Shown here piece by piece: positions 3,250 to 46,473 of a stretch of 64,000 nt of DNA. Within the stretch, counting starts at the first letter, position 1; each line of letters starts with the position of its first letter. This stretch comes from Bdellovibrionales bacterium CG12_big_fil_rev_8_21_14_0_65_38_15 (lineage in GTDB: Bacteria; Bdellovibrionota; Bacteriovoracia; Bacteriovoracales; Bacteriovoracaceae). A program made the position numbers and the translations under genes. The stretch spans positions 1 to 64,000 of the forward strand of contig PCUW01000040.1 in the NCBI GenBank assembly GCA_002787775.1, written 5' to 3'. The notes beneath the pieces were generated by a model. That model saw only the letters and a list, made by a program, of their open reading frames with translations. It had not been told where the DNA came from and ran no database searches.

Positions 3250-3375
3250 GCAGGTTCTCCCTTTTAGTGGCTAAGTCCCTACGAGTACGTAGAGTAACTT
3301 TGCTTGTAATACTTTTTCGGGACAAATCGCTTAAGCTTTATTAAGTTTGGAGAAACCTAGGATAAGGGGCAACCT

Positions 3376-4164
3376 TTGCAGCATAGTGATTTTTATCAGC
3401 ACCTCAGAGGGCTTAAGCCAGAAGGCGCGGGAGTGCTTGCTTCTAGGCTGTTTCAAGGTACTGAGTGGTACACAGAAGGTGTGCTTAACCTCTCAACCAA
3501 AGAGCCCTTAGCCTCTAAATATGTGCCTAAGGTTATCCCTACAGATCATAGTGAAAAAGCCAAAACGATTGAATCGCTTAAGAAGTTTGCTGACACCAAG
3601 CTTGAGCAGGCAGCTGGTGGTAAAATCCAAATTCCAGGTGGTGAAGTTGCGGTCAAAGAGGGTGTTTCTTTAGGTCGTAAAATAGTAATTGAGTCAAATC
3701 CTCAGACTCCAGCATGGGTTAATTCTGATATCAAAATCATCTTTTTTGGCGAATCTTCAAAGCTTGGTGATGCTAAAGAAAACCAAGAAGACCTAAGGGC
3801 TTCTGAACTCTTAGATAAGATGATCTCTGCCATGAAGCTTGAAGCCAACTCTGTTGTAAAATTATTTAATCAATCAAAACTGGCCAGTTCCGGTAGTGAG
3901 TTTGATGAATTAATGAAAGGCTTTATTGAATCAAAGCCAGACTACATCGTCTCTCTTGGCGCTATAGCCACAAACACTTTACTTGGTAGGAAAGAGAAGT
4001 TGACTAAAGTTCATGGTCAATTTTTCCCTTTAAAGATTCATCAAAATGAAGAGTTTCATGAAGTAAAGCTCATGCCACTTTTCCATCCAGACTTTCTTTT
4101 GATCAATCCCAACATGAAAAGAGCGGCTTGGATTGATTTACAAAAAATAATGTCATCACTTTAA
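3376..4164 (+). CDS. Uracil-DNA glycosylase superfamily-like protein
   Basis: 262 residues. The C-terminal half fits the family 4/5 uracil-DNA glycosylase fold: a first strand ending in a GES motif (IIFFGESS, about 122-129), a central PDYIVSLGAIATNTLLG segment, and a last motif LFHPDFLLINPNMKRAAW that resembles the HP-S/A...NP..+...W signature of UDG family 4. The N-terminal 100 residues are unlike classic UDG. The whole protein has no cysteine, so the 4Fe-4S cluster of family 4 enzymes cannot be present. Activity is therefore uncertain; a structural or DNA-binding role is possible. The start is TTG at 3376 with aagggg 6 bases upstream. Confidence 0.65.
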   Translation: MQHSDFYQHLRGLKPEGAGVLASRLFQGTEWYTEGVLNLSTKEPLASKYVPKVIPTDHSEKAKTIESLKKFADTKLEQAAGGKIQIPGGEVAVKEGVSLGRKIVIESNPQTPAWVNSDIKIIFFGESSKLGDAKENQEDLRASELLDKMISAMKLEANSVVKLFNQSKLASSGSEFDELMKGFIESKPDYIVSLGAIATNTLLGRKEKLTKVHGQFFPLKIHQNEEFHEVKLMPLFHPDFLLINPNMKRAAWIDLQKIMSSL

Positions 4165-4174
4165 TTTCAATCTC

Positions 4175-4203
4175 TTGAGTCATCATATTGCTTTGTGTAG
4201 AAT
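4175..4203 (+). promoter_or_regulatory. Sigma-70-type promoter of the spoIID-like operon
   Basis: ttgagt, 17-base spacer, tagaat. Both hexamers are close to the consensus and spacing is ideal. Predicted transcription start is near 4210, giving a leader of about 94 bases. Confidence 0.6.
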
Positions 4204-4209
4204 GAAGTT

Positions 4210-4303
4210 GTCTCATGATTGAGGCAACCGGGTTCCCATGACGGGAACGACACAGCTCATGGATCTCACTTTGTGAGACCACCGGAACCCCGCGGGGAAG
4301 TTC
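4210..4303 (+). promoter_or_regulatory. Structured 5' leader with alternative folds around the ribosome-binding site
   Basis: Several exact pairings are visible. Hairpin A: gttccc (4232-4237) with gggaac (4243-4248). Hairpin B: tctcac (4264-4269) with gtgaga (4273-4278), loop ttt. A long-range stem P1, gggttcc (4230-4236) with ggaaccc (4284-4290), excludes hairpin A. The ggaaccc strand can instead fold onto the ribosome-binding site (gaac 4285-4288 with gttc 4300-4303, cc with gg of the gggg at 4294-4297). Thus P1 would free the site and hairpin A would let it be hidden. I do not recognise a known riboswitch class. Confidence 0.5.
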
Positions 4304-5530
4304 ATGGTGTGGAGTCGAATTAAATTATCGATCGCTGCTTTCGTATTGCTATTTCCTCTGCTTGGAAATTCAGCTATTAGCTTCACTGAAATTGCGGAAA
4401 AAATACGACTCAAAACAGGTACTCCACTTTTGCGTGTACGAGTTGCGAAGGCACTCCAAGCGATTCAAGTTAGCGGTACTGATCTTGCTCGTACCCTACA
4501 CTTAACAAAAAATTCAAAAAGTTATGCGGGTAAAAAAACAATAAAATTCGAATGCGCAAATGTTGCGAGAAGAAATACGACTTCACCACTTCTATTGGCT
4601 TCATTGGGTTCACCAACGGGATTATTGTCTGTCGATAAAGATGGCGAGCAAGGTAAATATTTAGGAAAAATACTTATTTCGACTTCAACAGATCAAAAGC
4701 GTTGTGATGTTATTAACGAAATTGATATGGAAAGTTATCTTTCAACTCTTTTAGCAAAAGAGATGAATTCGAAATGGCCTGTTGAAGCCTTAAAGGCTCA
4801 AGCCGTTGCTGCTAGAACCTATGCTCTTCATAAAATTTATTCAAAAGAAGTTTCAAAAGTCTTCGGCTCAGAAGTTCCATTTGATCTGGAAAGTTCAGAA
4901 AAGCATCAAGTCAGTGGAAAGTTTTCTGATGAAACCCCCAATACTAGACTTGCCGCCGTATCAACGGCTGGAGAAGTCTTAGTAAATAATGAGGGCGAGT
5001 TAGCCCCAGTCTTTTTTCACGCCAAGTGTGGTGGACGAACAAGACTTCCTGAACAAGTTTGGCAAAATCCAGTTAAAGGTTATGAGTCAGTCAATTGCCC
5101 TTTTTGCAAAGACCATGGAAAACCTGGTTGGCAAAGTGAAATTTCGACGGAGCGATTAGAAAAATTTGTTCGATGGGCGACAAATAAAGGATATTTTCAT
5201 CCAAAGAGAGTTGTTCAAACAGGTGAACTGATTAAAGTTGCTGATGATCGTTGGAGCGCTAATCGTCTGCGCATCAGTTATGGAAACATAACCGCCTTAA
5301 TGGAAAAATCTGTTCTTCGAAGATATTTTGGTCGCGTTGAACTTAGATCGAATAATTTTCATATCCGTTATGCTTCGACAGGAGATTTGATTCTTGAGGG
5401 TAATGGTCATGGCCACGGAGTGGGTTTGTGCCAGATGGGCGCACTTGAAATGGCGCAACGTGGATACGATCACAAAAAAATATTATCTTACTACTTTCCC
5501 AACATGAAACTTGTTAAGGTTTATCAGTAA
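4304..5530 (+). CDS. SpoIID/LytB-domain protein (probable lytic transglycosylase-type)
   Basis: 408 residues with a signal peptide (hydrophobic stretch to about residue 24, ending GNSA), so it acts in the periplasm. The SpoIID signature is clear: EIDMESYLSTLLAKEMNSKWP, then ALKAQAVAARTYAL, and near the end GHGHGVGLCQMGALEMAQRGY. In Bacillus, SpoIID cleaves peptidoglycan glycan strands freed of stem peptides, which is the product of amidases. The next gene here is an amidase, one base after the stop, so the two probably act in sequence. Not a sporulation marker by itself. Start ATG at 4304 follows cgcgggg-aag; expression is probably controlled by the leader upstream. Confidence 0.9.
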   Translation: MVWSRIKLSIAAFVLLFPLLGNSAISFTEIAEKIRLKTGTPLLRVRVAKALQAIQVSGTDLARTLHLTKNSKSYAGKKTIKFECANVARRNTTSPLLLASLGSPTGLLSVDKDGEQGKYLGKILISTSTDQKRCDVINEIDMESYLSTLLAKEMNSKWPVEALKAQAVAARTYALHKIYSKEVSKVFGSEVPFDLESSEKHQVSGKFSDETPNTRLAAVSTAGEVLVNNEGELAPVFFHAKCGGRTRLPEQVWQNPVKGYESVNCPFCKDHGKPGWQSEISTERLEKFVRWATNKGYFHPKRVVQTGELIKVADDRWSANRLRISYGNITALMEKSVLRRYFGRVELRSNNFHIRYASTGDLILEGNGHGHGVGLCQMGALEMAQRGYDHKKILSYYFPNMKLVKVYQ

Positions 5531-5531
5531 A

Positions 5532-6293
5532 ATGATAAGAAAGCTCTTAGCCATATTCCTCTTTGTTTTTTCTACAAAGCTTTTAGCTGTGACAGTTTTA
5601 ATTGATCCAGGTCACGGCGGCGATGACCATGGAGCTAAAGGAAATTATAAGTCTGGTAAAAAAAGTTTAGAAGTCTTAGAAAAGGATCTAACTCTATCCA
5701 TAGCTAAGAAAGTCAAAGATCTTTTATCTCCTCATTGCCATGCCTATTTAACTAGAAGTATCGATAAAACACTTAGTCTTGAAAAACGAGCTGAAGTAGC
5801 GGAAACGATTAAGGCAGATTTATTTATTTCCATTCATGTCAATTCAAGTCGAACAGCTGGCGCTCATGGCTTTGAAACTTATTATCTTGATAATCACGAC
5901 GATGCAGCAGTCAGAAAAGTTGAAGAAGTTGAAAACAAAATGTCAGGTGGAGAAGGTGAAGAGATCATCATCAGACAAATTCTTACTGATTTAGTTGTTT
6001 CAAGAACAGTGACTAGCTCTAAAGCGTTAGCCAATTCAATTCACGGCGAGCTTAAGAAAACATTGCCAAGAAAGTTTAAGTTAACAGATAGAGGAATCAG
6101 ACCTGGTTTATTTTATGTTTTAGCCTTATCAAAACGTCCAGCAGTCCTTCTTGAGGCCGGCTTTATGTCTAATGATGTTGAGCTAAAAAAAATGTCGAGT
6201 GAGAAATTTCAAGATGAATACGCCAAAGCAATCGCTCAAGGCGTTCGAGACTTTATCAAAGTTCGTTTTAAACCTTCAGTTTCATTGTTTTAA
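5532..6293 (+). CDS. N-acetylmuramoyl-L-alanine amidase (Amidase_3, AmiC type)
   Basis: Zinc hydrolase that removes stem peptides from peptidoglycan. The start is the ATG at 5532 (MIRKLL), not the ORF-track start inside spoIID. Residues 1-19 form a signal peptide. Family motifs are present: first zinc ligand in LIDPGHGGDD (His28), a Glu ligand in the following ...EKDLTL segment, the second His in LFISIHVNSSRT, and the catalytic Glu in AVLLEAGFMSND. There is no AMIN domain or LysM repeat, so it is a minimal catalytic protein. Translationally linked to the SpoIID-like gene, giving a denude-then-cleave enzyme pair. Confidence 0.95.
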   Translation: MIRKLLAIFLFVFSTKLLAVTVLIDPGHGGDDHGAKGNYKSGKKSLEVLEKDLTLSIAKKVKDLLSPHCHAYLTRSIDKTLSLEKRAEVAETIKADLFISIHVNSSRTAGAHGFETYYLDNHDDAAVRKVEEVENKMSGGEGEEIIIRQILTDLVVSRTVTSSKALANSIHGELKKTLPRKFKLTDRGIRPGLFYVLALSKRPAVLLEAGFMSNDVELKKMSSEKFQDEYAKAIAQGVRDFIKVRFKPSVSLF

Positions 6294-9205: not shown

Positions 9206-9484
9206 ATGAACCGTAAAGACCTTATCGAAAGCGTACTAAGCGACAAAAACCTTTCACATCTTACTAAAAAAGATGCTGATAACTTCGTTGCATCACTAAT
9301 TGAAACAATCAAGAAGACTGTTAAAAAAGGTGAAGACGTATCTCTAGTTGGTTTCGGTACTTTCACAAAAGCCAAGCGCGCTGCACGTATGGGCGTAAAT
9401 CCTTCAACTGGCGAGAAAATTAAAATCAAAGCGAAAACTTTGCCAAAGTTCCGCCCAGGGAAGGCTTGGAAAGAATTAATGTAA
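9206..9484 (+). CDS. HU/IHF-family DNA-binding protein
   Basis: Small nucleoid protein that bends DNA as a dimer. The start is ATG at 9206 (MNRKDLIESV) with ggaga upstream; the ORF-track start 12 bases earlier lacks a ribosome-binding site. The family core is present: VSLVGFGTFTKAKRAARMGVNPSTGEKIKI, then TLPKFRPGKAWKELM. The length (92 residues) is standard. It sits between two terminators and is probably a single-gene unit. HU and IHF subunits cannot be told apart here. Confidence 0.95.
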   Translation: MNRKDLIESVLSDKNLSHLTKKDADNFVASLIETIKKTVKKGEDVSLVGFGTFTKAKRAARMGVNPSTGEKIKIKAKTLPKFRPGKAWKELM

Positions 9485-9649: not shown

Positions 9650-9678
9650 AAGAAAGTGCCACAATTATTACCTCCCCC

Positions 9679-9707
9679 TTGAAGGCGCTGCATATGGAAT
9701 GTATAAT
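9679..9707 (+). promoter_or_regulatory. Predicted sigma-70 promoter of the flagellar operon
   Basis: ttgaag, 17-base spacer, tataat. The -10 is perfect. Start of transcription would be near 9714, leaving a leader of about 60 bases before fliL. No clear sigma-28 or sigma-54 promoter was found in this region. Confidence 0.55.
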
Positions 9708-9772
9708 TTTTGACGTAGGGGCGGAAAAAAAATCTCTACAAGCCTTTAACCAACCATGGATGGTGGACTAGT

Positions 9773-42324: not shown

Positions 42325-42649
42325 AAGTATTGCCCTCTTAGAGTTTGATTGGTTTTGATCAATGTAATTGAAGCTTTAATTTTTCCAATTAAACTAGATT
42401 AAGATGTGAATATTTTACAAAAGAGTATCAAGTCAAGAAATAATAATCACTTCAAAATTCATCCTTTACCTAATTGAAAGCATATATTGGATTTTATAAG
42501 AGTGTCTAAATTGCCTAAACAGAGACATTTAGAAGTGTTTTTGTTTATAAGTCCTGTAAATCTTACCCTTAAGACATTTTTTTATGTAACAGACACCTTT
42601 TGGGGATGAATAGGTCACTTTCGTTACCGAGACCAAAAGGGGAATTTGA
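42325..42649. other. 325-bp gene-free stretch before the protease pseudogene
   Basis: AT-rich. Its last 70 to 100 bases resemble the region before the intact protease gene at 46528 (shared ttatg.aacagac...cttttgggg blocks), so it holds the dead copy's promoter and leader. The first 20 bases contain the ribosome-binding site of the small secreted protein. Nothing else recognised. Confidence 0.6.
42596..42640 (+). promoter_or_regulatory. Leader hairpin of the protease pseudogene
   Basis: Perfect 8-bp pairing ccttttgg (42596-42603)/ccaaaagg (42633-42640), overlapping the ribosome-binding site. Counterpart of the hairpin at 46474-46520 before the intact gene. Confidence 0.5.
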
Positions 42650-43080
42650 ATGAATATGCAACTAATCGCTTCTTGCGCGATCCTGGCTACAAGCTCTATC
42701 TTTTCTTAGGATATGGGAAGTCTTATGCTTAAAGTTATTTATGGTGAAGATGATCGCGTTGGCATGATTGATTCAAATAATCCACTTTTTATCAAGCTTG
42801 CTAGCTAACGGCAGCACAAATTTAAACGAAACTAACCATAAGAGGTTCTGATGCTGTACTAAGCTTCGGATCTTTAGAAAATGGAATGGGTGTATGCCCT
42901 ACTGAGAAATTTGCGGCACAAAATAGTATCGCAAAATGTTCAGTCTTTTTAGTTGCTAAAGACTTGCTTGTTACGGCCGGTCACTGTGCAAGATCTCCAG
43001 AAGAATGTGAAAGATACGCTTGGCTTTTTGACTATAGAGAAGGAGAGGTTGATGACGGTAAAATCCCAGTTAAAGAATAA
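42650..43080 (+). pseudogene. Truncated and decayed trypsin-like protease gene
   Basis: Clearly the same gene as 46528-47448 over its first 140 codons: ATGaatatgcaactaatcgcttcttgcgcg at the start, then matching blocks through GVCPTEKFAAQNSIAKCSVFLVAKDLLVTAGHC. It has an in-frame TAG at codon 20 (42707-42709), a second stop near 42806 and small indels. It keeps the catalytic His region but lacks the Asp and Ser regions. Its last codons (PVKE-stop) and the terminator after it are a copy of the end of rpsA. The ORF track shows only the last 64 codons (42886). Confidence 0.9.
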
Positions 43081-43144
43081 ATCTTAGTAAAATACTAGGT
43101 TTTATTAATGAGGCCCAGGTTTATCCTGGGCCTTTTTTCATTTA
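43065..43144 (+). repeat. Second copy of the rpsA 3' end and terminator
   Basis: About 80 bases, from agttaaagaata through aggcccaggtttatcctggg and the T run, match 41982-42061 with few differences. It is fused to the interrupted protease copy. Confidence 0.9.
43111..43138 (+). terminator. Duplicate terminator after the protease pseudogene
   Basis: aggcccagg/cctgggcct, tttat loop, TTTTTT; stem and loop are identical to the rpsA terminator. Confidence 0.95.
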
Positions 43145-43228
43145 GCCTTGTCATATAGAAAATAACTGTAAATTGAGCCCACTTGCTCCTATAATTCTAT
43201 TTAGTAAAACTTAAAACGAAGGCTTGGT

Positions 43229-44953
43229 TTGTACTCGCTTGGCATTATTGCTCTTCAGGGGCATTGCTCCACCATATCCTTGTATAAAGACGACGAATTA
43301 GTATTCGCTCTATCTGAGGAGCGATTATCTCGAATTAAAGAAGACTCAAACTTTCCTGAGTTCGCCATCAAAGCCTGTTTAGATAAATTCAATTTAAAAA
43401 TGCAAGATATCGATTCAATTTCCTTTGCTTGGAATCCATGGAGTAGCCTGTGGTTTTATTTATTAAAAAATTTAAAGCACACAACATTTGATTTCTTGTT
43501 CGGTAAACGAATAAACGGAAAGCGCTCAAGAGTTAAAAAGTTTTTAGAGATGATCTTTATTAGATCATATATCAAAAAGACATTTGGCCATTGTCCTAAG
43601 CTTAGTTTTAAAGATCACCATACATGTCATTCTTTAACTTCGATCTTTCATTCAGGTTTCACAGACCCATTGAGTCTCGTCATTGATGGTTACGGCGATA
43701 GAGCAACCATAAGCTTATACAAATTAAATGGCCGTCATCATCAATTACTTCAAGAAACTTTTTTTCCTGATTCTCTTGGTTTATTTTATTCAATGTTTAC
43801 ACAATTCTTAGGTTTTACTTCAGATATAGATGAATATAAGTTCATGGGACTTTCTTCATATGGTGAACCAAGTCTTGTCGATAAAATTAATCAAGTCATC
43901 TCCTTTGATGAAAATAACTTTGTTAAACTGAATTTGACATATTTTACATTTCAAAAATCATCCAATGTTTTTTATTCTGATAAACTCATTGAGCTTTTAG
44001 GTGATCCAAAAACTTATGATTTCAAACAAAGAACAGATTTAGCTAAAAGTGTTCAAGTTGTTTTCTCTCAAGTGATTTTAAAAATAATAAAAAATATCAA
44101 ACAAAAGTACGGACAAGAAACACAGAGCATTTGTTTTTCTGGCGGAGTTTTTCAAAATTGTGTTTTAAATAAAGATATTAGAGATAGTAAGATATTTAAA
44201 AATGTATTCTTTACTCCACTTTGTTCTGATCTTGGTACTGCCATTGGAGCTTGCTTGAGCGAGCGTTTATCAAAAGGCTTAAGTCTCAAAAAGCTCAGTC
44301 ATTTGTATTTAGGTAGTTCTTTTTCTGACACCGAAATTGAAAAGATTCTGAAATTCTTTAATTTAAACTACACGACCTCTGAAAACCTTACAAAAGATAC
44401 GGCAAAAATTCTTGAGCAAGAAAATATTATTGGTTGGTTTCAAGGGGCGAGTGAGCTTGGTTATAGAGCTTTAGGTGCACGCAGCATCTTAGCTGATCCT
44501 AGAAAACAAGAAATGAAAGATAAGGTTAATCACAAAATAAAAAAACGAGAATCATTTCGTCCTTTTGCTCCTGCTACGACCAATGAGTTTGTTCATAAAT
44601 TCTTTGAAGTCAGCGGCCAAGAGCTTGGTTATATGATTGAGACTGTTGATGCTAAAAAAGAAATGGCAAATGAAATAGCTGCAGTTGTTCATGTTGATTC
44701 ATCCTCTAGAGTACAAGTCGTTAGCGAGCAGGATAATAAGATTTTTTATGATCTGCTCTTAGAATTTGAAAAACAAACAGGCGTTGGCGTTCTCCTTAAT
44801 ACATCTTTTAATATTAAAGATGAGCCTATCGTGAACTCCCCTCAGGATGCCTTGATCTGTTTTGCTCGTGCCAATCTTGACTACCTCGTTATGGGTCGTT
44901 TCATTATACCTGCAAATAGTAATAATCATTTTATATCGAGATATCAGTCGTGA
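43229..44953 (+). CDS. Carbamoyltransferase, NodU/CmcH/TobZ family
   Basis: 574 residues. Transfers a carbamoyl group from carbamoyl phosphate, via an adenylate, to a hydroxyl group, typically of a sugar or secondary metabolite. N-terminal Kae1-like domain: LGIIALQGHCSTISLYKDDE, ALSEERLSRIKEDSNFPEFAIK, and the metal site FKDHHTCHSLTSIF with VIDGYGDRA. C-terminal domain: GWFQGASELGYRALGARSIL, then KKRESFRPFAPAT and LLNTSFNIKDEPIVNSPQDA. The start is TTG at 43229 with gaagg upstream. AT-rich compared with the flanking genes. The next gene overlaps by 4 bases. A modifier of a surface polysaccharide is the likeliest role (inference). Confidence 0.92.
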   Translation: MYSLGIIALQGHCSTISLYKDDELVFALSEERLSRIKEDSNFPEFAIKACLDKFNLKMQDIDSISFAWNPWSSLWFYLLKNLKHTTFDFLFGKRINGKRSRVKKFLEMIFIRSYIKKTFGHCPKLSFKDHHTCHSLTSIFHSGFTDPLSLVIDGYGDRATISLYKLNGRHHQLLQETFFPDSLGLFYSMFTQFLGFTSDIDEYKFMGLSSYGEPSLVDKINQVISFDENNFVKLNLTYFTFQKSSNVFYSDKLIELLGDPKTYDFKQRTDLAKSVQVVFSQVILKIIKNIKQKYGQETQSICFSGGVFQNCVLNKDIRDSKIFKNVFFTPLCSDLGTAIGACLSERLSKGLSLKKLSHLYLGSSFSDTEIEKILKFFNLNYTTSENLTKDTAKILEQENIIGWFQGASELGYRALGARSILADPRKQEMKDKVNHKIKKRESFRPFAPATTNEFVHKFFEVSGQELGYMIETVDAKKEMANEIAAVVHVDSSSRVQVVSEQDNKIFYDLLLEFEKQTGVGVLLNTSFNIKDEPIVNSPQDALICFARANLDYLVMGRFIIPANSNNHFISRYQS

Positions 44954-46350
44954 TAAATAAAAATGTAGCTTTTTGGGGGCAAACCCTAATGTGGATACTT
45001 CTAGCCTTTTTGATGTCTGTATTCATGTATGAGCATATTTCTTCTCATTATATTTTTTGGAAAGATCCTACGATTTGGTTTTTTCCTATTTTAATATCGA
45101 AGAGCTATATTAATTGGGACTTATCACGTGTTGTTGCCCACCTGCTAAATGATGCTCCTCTTCTATTGTGGATGCAGATGTCCTCAAATATTAAAATCTT
45201 AGCCTATGTTTTCTCTGCTACAGTTTGGTTTTGGTATTTTGTAAGTTTTCTGTTTTCATTTCTTTATATTTTGAAAAGAGATGAAAGATATCTTTTAGTT
45301 CTCTTTCCCATTATCTTAAGCGCCTCTATAAAAGCTTTTCTTTATACGGAAATTCATTTTATCGCTATTTTAGGTCTTCCAGCTTTATTATTGCTTTTAA
45401 GCGAGAAAGAAAAAAGTACTGTTAGACAGATTTTTTTAAGTATTTTGCTGATCGCATTGGGCTTTACGCACCAGTCAGTCATTTTTTATTACGCCAGTGT
45501 AATTTTATTTCTTTTTATTTCTAAAAATATAAAAATTTTTCCAGGCCTAACGCGGATCATTCCTCTGTTAATTTCTCTTGCCATGCTTATCTATAACTTA
45601 TTAGTCATTTTTAAACCTAATGATGAAGTATGCGATGCCTGTATCAGTGATTTTAGAACAACATTGTTTTATATTGGTGGGTATTGGAGCGTTTGGGTGT
45701 TTTTAGCTTTCTTTGTTCCTCTTTTTTATCTTTCGCGCAAAGGATACAAATTCTTAATTCCATTTCTAGCTTTGTATGGGTATTTCTACTCAGTTTCGCT
45801 TCAAAAATATAACTACACTGAGCTCTTTGTACAATGGAATGGTCGTATTCATATAATTCTTATCTTTAGTATCATGTGTTTTTTAGTTCTTTTGTTGAAA
45901 TTCCTAAGCAAGATAAATCTTTTAAAAAGAATTAACGCCTTAACTCCAATATATTGTTGTTTATGTATTGTGAGCTCATTTAGTTATATAAATGTTTGGA
46001 AAGATATCAAAATGGATCTCTCGAGCGTTTCAAATCGAGTTGACGAAAATAAACCACTAGTGATGCTAACCCTTTCAAATCCTGAATTTAAAATGGCGCC
46101 AGTTAATTATAATGCAGTTTTAGCGGCCCGTAATATTCAGGATCTCAGTCTCTTTTTTCAGTTAGTTGAAGGCAAGCAGGTCATTCATCGTCTTATAGTT
46201 AGAGATTATGACTATAAAAATACCCAAGAAGCCTTTGATCGACTTGCTCGACTTGAAGATTTGGGGATAACTTTTTCTAAGCCTTTAAGCGATTGTATTG
46301 AAGAGTTCGAAGTTAATTTAAAAGATGCCAGCTGCGTACTTAACTTTTAA
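44950..46350 (+). CDS. Polytopic membrane protein, function unknown
   Basis: 466 residues, rich in Phe, Leu and Ile, with about 10-12 membrane spans over residues 10-345 and a soluble C-terminal domain (about 355-466) with Cys near the end. The layout recalls membrane glycosyltransferases or O-antigen-type proteins, but no motif proves it. The start is GTG at 44950, overlapping the carbamoyltransferase stop, so the two are translated together and probably act on the same glycan (inference). Strongly AT-rich. Confidence 0.75.
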   Translation: MINKNVAFWGQTLMWILLAFLMSVFMYEHISSHYIFWKDPTIWFFPILISKSYINWDLSRVVAHLLNDAPLLLWMQMSSNIKILAYVFSATVWFWYFVSFLFSFLYILKRDERYLLVLFPIILSASIKAFLYTEIHFIAILGLPALLLLLSEKEKSTVRQIFLSILLIALGFTHQSVIFYYASVILFLFISKNIKIFPGLTRIIPLLISLAMLIYNLLVIFKPNDEVCDACISDFRTTLFYIGGYWSVWVFLAFFVPLFYLSRKGYKFLIPFLALYGYFYSVSLQKYNYTELFVQWNGRIHIILIFSIMCFLVLLLKFLSKINLLKRINALTPIYCCLCIVSSFSYINVWKDIKMDLSSVSNRVDENKPLVMLTLSNPEFKMAPVNYNAVLAARNIQDLSLFFQLVEGKQVIHRLIVRDYDYKNTQEAFDRLARLEDLGITFSKPLSDCIEEFEVNLKDASCVLNF

Positions 46351-46473
46351 ACACATATCTATGATTGATCTAAGTGTTTGATTTTACGAAGATAATTATC
46401 GCTAAAAAATATTTAGAGATCCATCAATACCTATAAACTTTACACTTAAACTAACTAATTATGACACAGACCG

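Follow-up and report, generated by a model that had tools for sequence, protein, structure and literature searches.

The described systems closest to the leader analysed here are translational riboswitches, leaders controlled by CsrA/RsmA and RNA thermometers. Translational riboswitches, such as the E. coli moaA (Moco) leader, resemble it in having a multi-helix leader, a joining strand that does not vary and a hairpin that covers the Shine-Dalgarno sequence; unlike them, the present leader has no Rfam match or known ligand and occurs in two genomes only. CsrA recognises ANGGAN in the loops of hairpins, with RUACARGGAUGU as its selected consensus, and its precedents on structured leaders in E. 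coli include the moaA riboswitch leader and the Shine-Dalgarno-masking ymdA hairpin (PMC7652899). As in the CsrA/RsmA target leaders of E. coli glgC, ymdA and moaA, GGA motifs are present in the leader, one of them overlapping the ribosome-binding region; CsrA is encoded in this genome, and orthologs in the family have GGA-in-loop hairpins upstream. Unlike these targets, the genus studied here lacks a stable GGA-loop hairpin, and the invariant domain is far larger than a CsrA site. RNA thermometers also hold the ribosome-binding site in a hairpin; in contrast to them, the hairpin here (P4) consists of a few G-C pairs and lacks the weak, U-rich stem that is usual, and no Rfam thermometer family matches.

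The locus lies in a stretch of 64,000 nucleotides (hereafter the window), part of a 3.3-Mb draft genome. Upstream of the leader, a uracil-DNA-glycosylase-superfamily gene ends at 4164. The gene downstream, annotated at first pass as a SpoIID-like cell-wall gene, was identified as SpoIID by Pfam, and the N-terminus of its product reads as signal-peptide-like. An amidase gene follows, and the two probably form one operon. Transcription is predicted to start at about 4210. The locus was compared with that of a relative of the same genus, the Halobacteriovorax sp. SP4097 MAG (G001; locus L074, contig PBCC01000025.1). The features are as follows.

4175-4203, plus strand: promoter-like -35 and -10 hexamers found by scan, TTGAGT (4175-4180) and TAGAAT (4198-4203), separated by 17 nt, 9/12 matches.
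4208-4227, plus strand: P0, the 5' hairpin UUGUCUCA-UGAU-UGAGGCAA, from fold prediction and comparison with the relative.
4228-4231, plus strand: 5' strand of P1, CCGG, pairing with CCGG at 4282-4285, from fold prediction; invariant in the relative.
4230-4236, plus strand: GGGUUCC, 5' strand of the long-range helix (partner 4284-4290), overlapping P1 and P2.
4232-4248, plus strand: P2 hairpin GUUCCC-AUGAC-GGGAAC, GTTCCC at 4232-4237 with GGGAAC at 4243-4248.
4249-4263, plus strand: joining strand J2/3, GACACAGCUCAUGGA, invariant in the relative.
4264-4278, plus strand: P3 hairpin UCUCAC-UUU-GUGAGA, from alignment with the relative.
4284-4290, plus strand: GGAACCC, 3' strand of the long-range helix, whose CCC also pairs with GGGG over the ribosome-binding site.
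4288-4297, plus strand: P4, CCCC-GC-GGGG (CCCC at 4288-4291), folding as three pairs with loop CGCG and masking the Shine-Dalgarno-like GGGG.
4294-4297, plus strand: Shine-Dalgarno-like GGGG, read from the sequence, 6 nt before the ATG and kept in the relative.
4304-5530, plus strand: SpoIID-domain protein gene, 408 aa, PF08486 (Pfam), 73.5 bits.
About 5532-6293, plus strand: N-acetylmuramoyl-L-alanine amidase (Amidase_3) gene, next after spoIID.

The 94-base leader and the four strands reported for it at first pass (GGGTTCC, GTTCCC, GGGAAC and GGAACCC) were recovered base for base and in place, as was the near-consensus promoter. Locally the promoter is at chance level, with one promoter-like site found in the region against 1.9 expected, but both hexamers are identical in the relative, and such sites are enriched upstream of spoIID orthologs (45/90 against 24.4 expected). 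As an unpaired strand J2/3 reads GACACAGCUCA, and its UGG runs on into the base of P3. The sole ANGGAN core of the leader, AUGGAU (4259-4264), lies in J2/3.

The window and the relative are syntenic across most of the aligned 48 kb. Their SpoIID proteins are about 77% identical, and the four-fold sites of spoIID are identical at 48/142 (34%), close to saturation. In the leader, not one base differs in the blocks 4228-4267 and 4275-4291. The most similar 60-nt stretch of the leader region is 97% identical, second only to the region before fliL among alignable intergenic regions. The conservation reaches into the gene: the first 22 nt of spoIID are 95% identical against 57% over the next 75 nt, and codons 1-7 are nearly unchanged. 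The first-pass reading was open to refutation by a lack of conserved pairing in relatives; every pairing strand of the leader is retained. The sequence of P0 drifts with its hairpin retained, the P4 loop changes from GC to AAC, and in P3 the A-U pair 4268-4274 is G-C in the relative, a compensatory change accompanied by one base added to the loop. Formal counting of pairs for covariation gave a single compensatory pair, which lies outside the alternative pairings and comes from two sequences, a sample with no statistical power; the doubly used strands are invariant between the two, which leaves no variation in the competing helices from which covariation could be read. Strands with two partners would be expected to stay invariant if double use forbids compensatory change, and this is the pattern seen: P0, P3 and the P4 loop drift but keep their pairing. 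In two sequences it is suggestive only.

Other differences and similarities between the two genomes were recorded along the window. The region at 9674-9772, before fliL-fliM-fliN-fliO-fliP, is even more conserved than the leader, with a 67-nt identical run at 9674-9740, and ACCATGGATGGT (9753-9764) just before the fliL ATG is another CsrA-type GGA palindrome. Over 100 aligned bases, the region at 3250-3375, which separates a 70-aa minus-strand ORF from the uracil-DNA-glycosylase gene, has 89% identity. About 3.8 kb at 42554-46440 is extra relative to G001, both ends aligning to the same place there (42.6-43.2 kb), a pattern suggestive of duplication or insertion of a segment containing the ORFs 43229-44953 and 44950-46350. 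A putative HU-like DNA-binding protein of about 92 aa, shorter than the ORF cut-off used, is readable at 9206-9484.

Three helices of the leader are mutually exclusive, namely GTTCCC/GGGAAC, GGGTTCC/GGAACCC and CCCC/GGGG, and this three-helix logic was found in 0/3000 dinucleotide shuffles under a criterion fixed post hoc. In addition, UCAUGG of J2/3 is complementary to CCAUGA of P2/L2 over 6 nt (shuffle p 0.005), and CAUGA/UCAUG (4237-4241 with 4257-4261) would stack on GGGUUCC/GGAACCC to give a three-way junction with P3. Folding energy is modestly better than that of shuffles (z -1.7 here, -2.5 in the relative). Of the two mutually exclusive folds described at first pass, the competing strands are present and all kept in the relative, but the folds are not near-isoenergetic. 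Energy models prefer the local fold of P2 and P4, with long-range pairing about 6-9 kcal/mol worse; when the long-range helix is imposed, the penalty is about 9 kcal/mol here and some 7 kcal/mol for the relative. In the full leader P2 has a predicted probability of 0.98 here and 0.89 in the relative, against about 1e-5 for the long-range pairing, which would need a helper. For a transcript ending just past CCCC the long-range helix reaches 0.67 here and 0.05 in the relative; since it is transiently favoured in only one of the two, a purely kinetic switch is unsupported. The minimum-energy fold additionally pairs J2/3 with the start codon, and masking of the start codon by J2/3 was rejected as a special feature because the duplex is no better than in shuffled sequence (p 0.17-0.21). 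The riboswitch-like logic of a translational switch, as first proposed, is partly supported, as regards the SpoIID gene, the conserved structured leader and the exclusive pairings at the ribosome site, and is weakened by the dominance of local P2 in the predicted ensemble; sensing of a metabolite would be a further assumption.

Searches for the leader elsewhere gave a narrow distribution. Rfam 15 at the gathering score gave no match in the window; around the leader, a permissive threshold of E up to 10 gave only snoRNA-like chance matches, and at E up to 1 the leader of the relative had no match, in agreement with the original statement that no known class was recognised. When 129 genomes from the family and 369 from the phylum were scanned with a covariance model built from the two leader sequences, the leader appeared in these two genomes only (at order level the scan comprised the same 129 genomes as at family level). 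Weak model matches at L075 and L076 fall inside long open reading frames and were rejected, as were the remaining weak matches of 13-20 bits. DNA search and covariance model found no second copy in the genome of the window; a GTDB pattern scan gave seven matches, with the leader only in L074, the same relative; and an IMG/VR pattern scan and a phage BLAST gave no match. A narrow literature search found no description of this leader. With no third member of the model, no further copy in its own genome and no Rfam match, the domain is limited to one genus and one gene in the genomes examined. A scan found no intrinsic terminator in the leader, where P4 is followed by AAGUUC with no U run, and the leader thus does not have the form of a transcription attenuator. 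As a leader-peptide candidate, the ATG at 4238 opens a frame of 12 codons here, with the frame shifted downstream in the relative; leader-peptide and antisense reading-frame explanations were rejected because 1-nt insertions in the P3 and P4 loops shift the frame there.

SpoIID is present in 117 of the 129 family genomes, and a total of 90 spoIID upstream regions, both of the window's genus included, were compared. GGA-in-loop hairpins of at least 5 pairs were found in 47/90 of these regions, against 5/53 for other genes of the window and 15/75 for neighbouring genes; with at least 4 pairs and a narrower region the count was 55/90 against 13.4 expected from shuffles. At least 4 pairs enclose a GGA loop in 30/43 genera, with stems that differ around AGGA/TGGA. 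Examples are TTAATTTCC-AAGGATAA-GGGAATTAA, CACTGAC-AGGACG-GTTAGTG and AAATCCTC-AGGAT-GAGGATTT; one ortholog leader carries the hairpin TTTCCAAGGATAAGGGAATTA. The hairpins were noted family-wide among the spoIID upstream regions of loci L035-L062 and L077-L136, and by eye many of the family hairpins lie close to the start codon. Because the orthologs share ancestry and the search itself selected for pairing, the evidence is the enrichment over controls and not the count, and with a control rate of 9-20% part of the family list is chance. On these sequence comparisons spoIID is likely a CsrA/RsmA target across the family. In the window's genus there is no stable GGA-loop hairpin, one species having an unstable 4-pair candidate and the other none. 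As a separate observation, 5' hairpins of the form GTCTCA-loop-TGAGAC, like P0, occur near the predicted transcript start in other genera (L044, L088, L036, L037).

The family-wide enrichment is one argument for a leader controlled by CsrA/RsmA. Under that explanation the GGA site that would control spoIID near the ribosome site in the family has here become part of a larger structure (AUGGAU in J2/3), in which CsrA might either free or cover the ribosome-binding site. The genome encodes one CsrA (PF02599, 91 bits), the ANGGAN core lies in an invariant strand, the leader has 5 GGA against 2.3 expected (p 0.05), and the published consensus and the E. coli moaA and ymdA precedents fit; however, most GGA of the leader are in predicted stems, which reduces CsrA-type binding (PMC7652899). 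The missing stable GGA-loop hairpin in this genus, the chance component of the family list and 57 unchanged bases, more than CsrA binding alone requires, also count against it, and we regard it as a rather unlikely account of this leader. The invariance of J2/3 and L2, both unpaired, would suit a riboswitch of a new class for a metabolite or ion, in which P1-P2-P3 with an L2/J2-3 pseudoknot would form the ligand pocket. The domain is compact and multi-helix, P4 resembles an expression platform and no Rfam family matches. Most riboswitch classes are more widely distributed and recur before related genes, whereas this leader stands once per genome upstream of one gene in two genomes, and spoIID suggests no ligand; we regard this explanation, too, as rather unlikely. 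Its more specific form, a new class that would respond to a molecule from the cell wall or from prey and turn on the peptidoglycan-remodelling operon in predatory bacteria, is doubtful.

Dominance of the local fold in the predicted ensemble (P2 at 0.98 and 0.89) is what a static, non-switching leader would show, one that shields the mRNA or serves as the partner of a trans-acting small RNA. A 5' hairpin at the transcript end is typical of stabilised leaders, and P0 sits right at the predicted end. A static structure alone, however, leaves the invariance of single-stranded J2/3 and the triple complementarity at the ribosome site unexplained, and we consider it unlikely. It is very improbable that the conserved block acts as DNA, as an operator with the inverted repeats GTTCCC-N5-GGGAAC, or consists of chance palindromes: a perfect 6-bp inverted repeat, GTTCCC/GGGAAC, does follow closely downstream of the promoter, but the block is about 75 nt long, starts past the promoter and reaches codon 7, and P3 pairing is kept through a double change and a loop insertion, as in RNA.

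The near absence of evolutionary change in the leader, together with exclusive pairings that cover the ribosome site, makes it probable that these two marine bacteria of Halobacteriovorax type share a regulatory RNA outside all catalogued classes. The data allow no stronger statement than that of a candidate cis-regulatory leader, structured and acting on the initiation of translation; translational control with a CsrA-like or small-molecule trigger is its most likely role. In our best explanation, to which we give an even chance of being correct, the RNA is specific to the genus, acts in cis and governs how translation of the spoIID-amidase operon is initiated, through a proposed OFF/ON refolding. 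In the resting fold that we infer, P0, P1-P2-P3 and P4 would form, and P4 would hold the Shine-Dalgarno GGGG (OFF or low). An effector, for which we take two candidates seriously, a CsrA-type protein and a small molecule, would bind the invariant L2 and J2/3 (CAUGA and GACACAGCUCAUGGAU) and shift the leader to GGGUUCC/GGAACCC with CAUGA/UCAUG stacked upon it; the long-range pairing would pull CCCC out of P4 and leave the ribosome-binding site free (ON). The transcription start, the direction of control and the effector are those that we infer, and the refolding explanation is weakened by having only two sequences, by a long-range fold 6-9 kcal/mol less stable and by the modest folding z-score.

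To our knowledge, post-transcriptional control has been little studied in Halobacteriovorax-type bacteria. If the leader is a switch, it would link peptidoglycan remodelling in these organisms to a leader RNA that no catalogue lists. The results also give a testable idea for the family, namely that the spoIID-amidase operon may be CsrA-controlled family-wide and that one genus may have replaced or elaborated the site into a larger regulated RNA.
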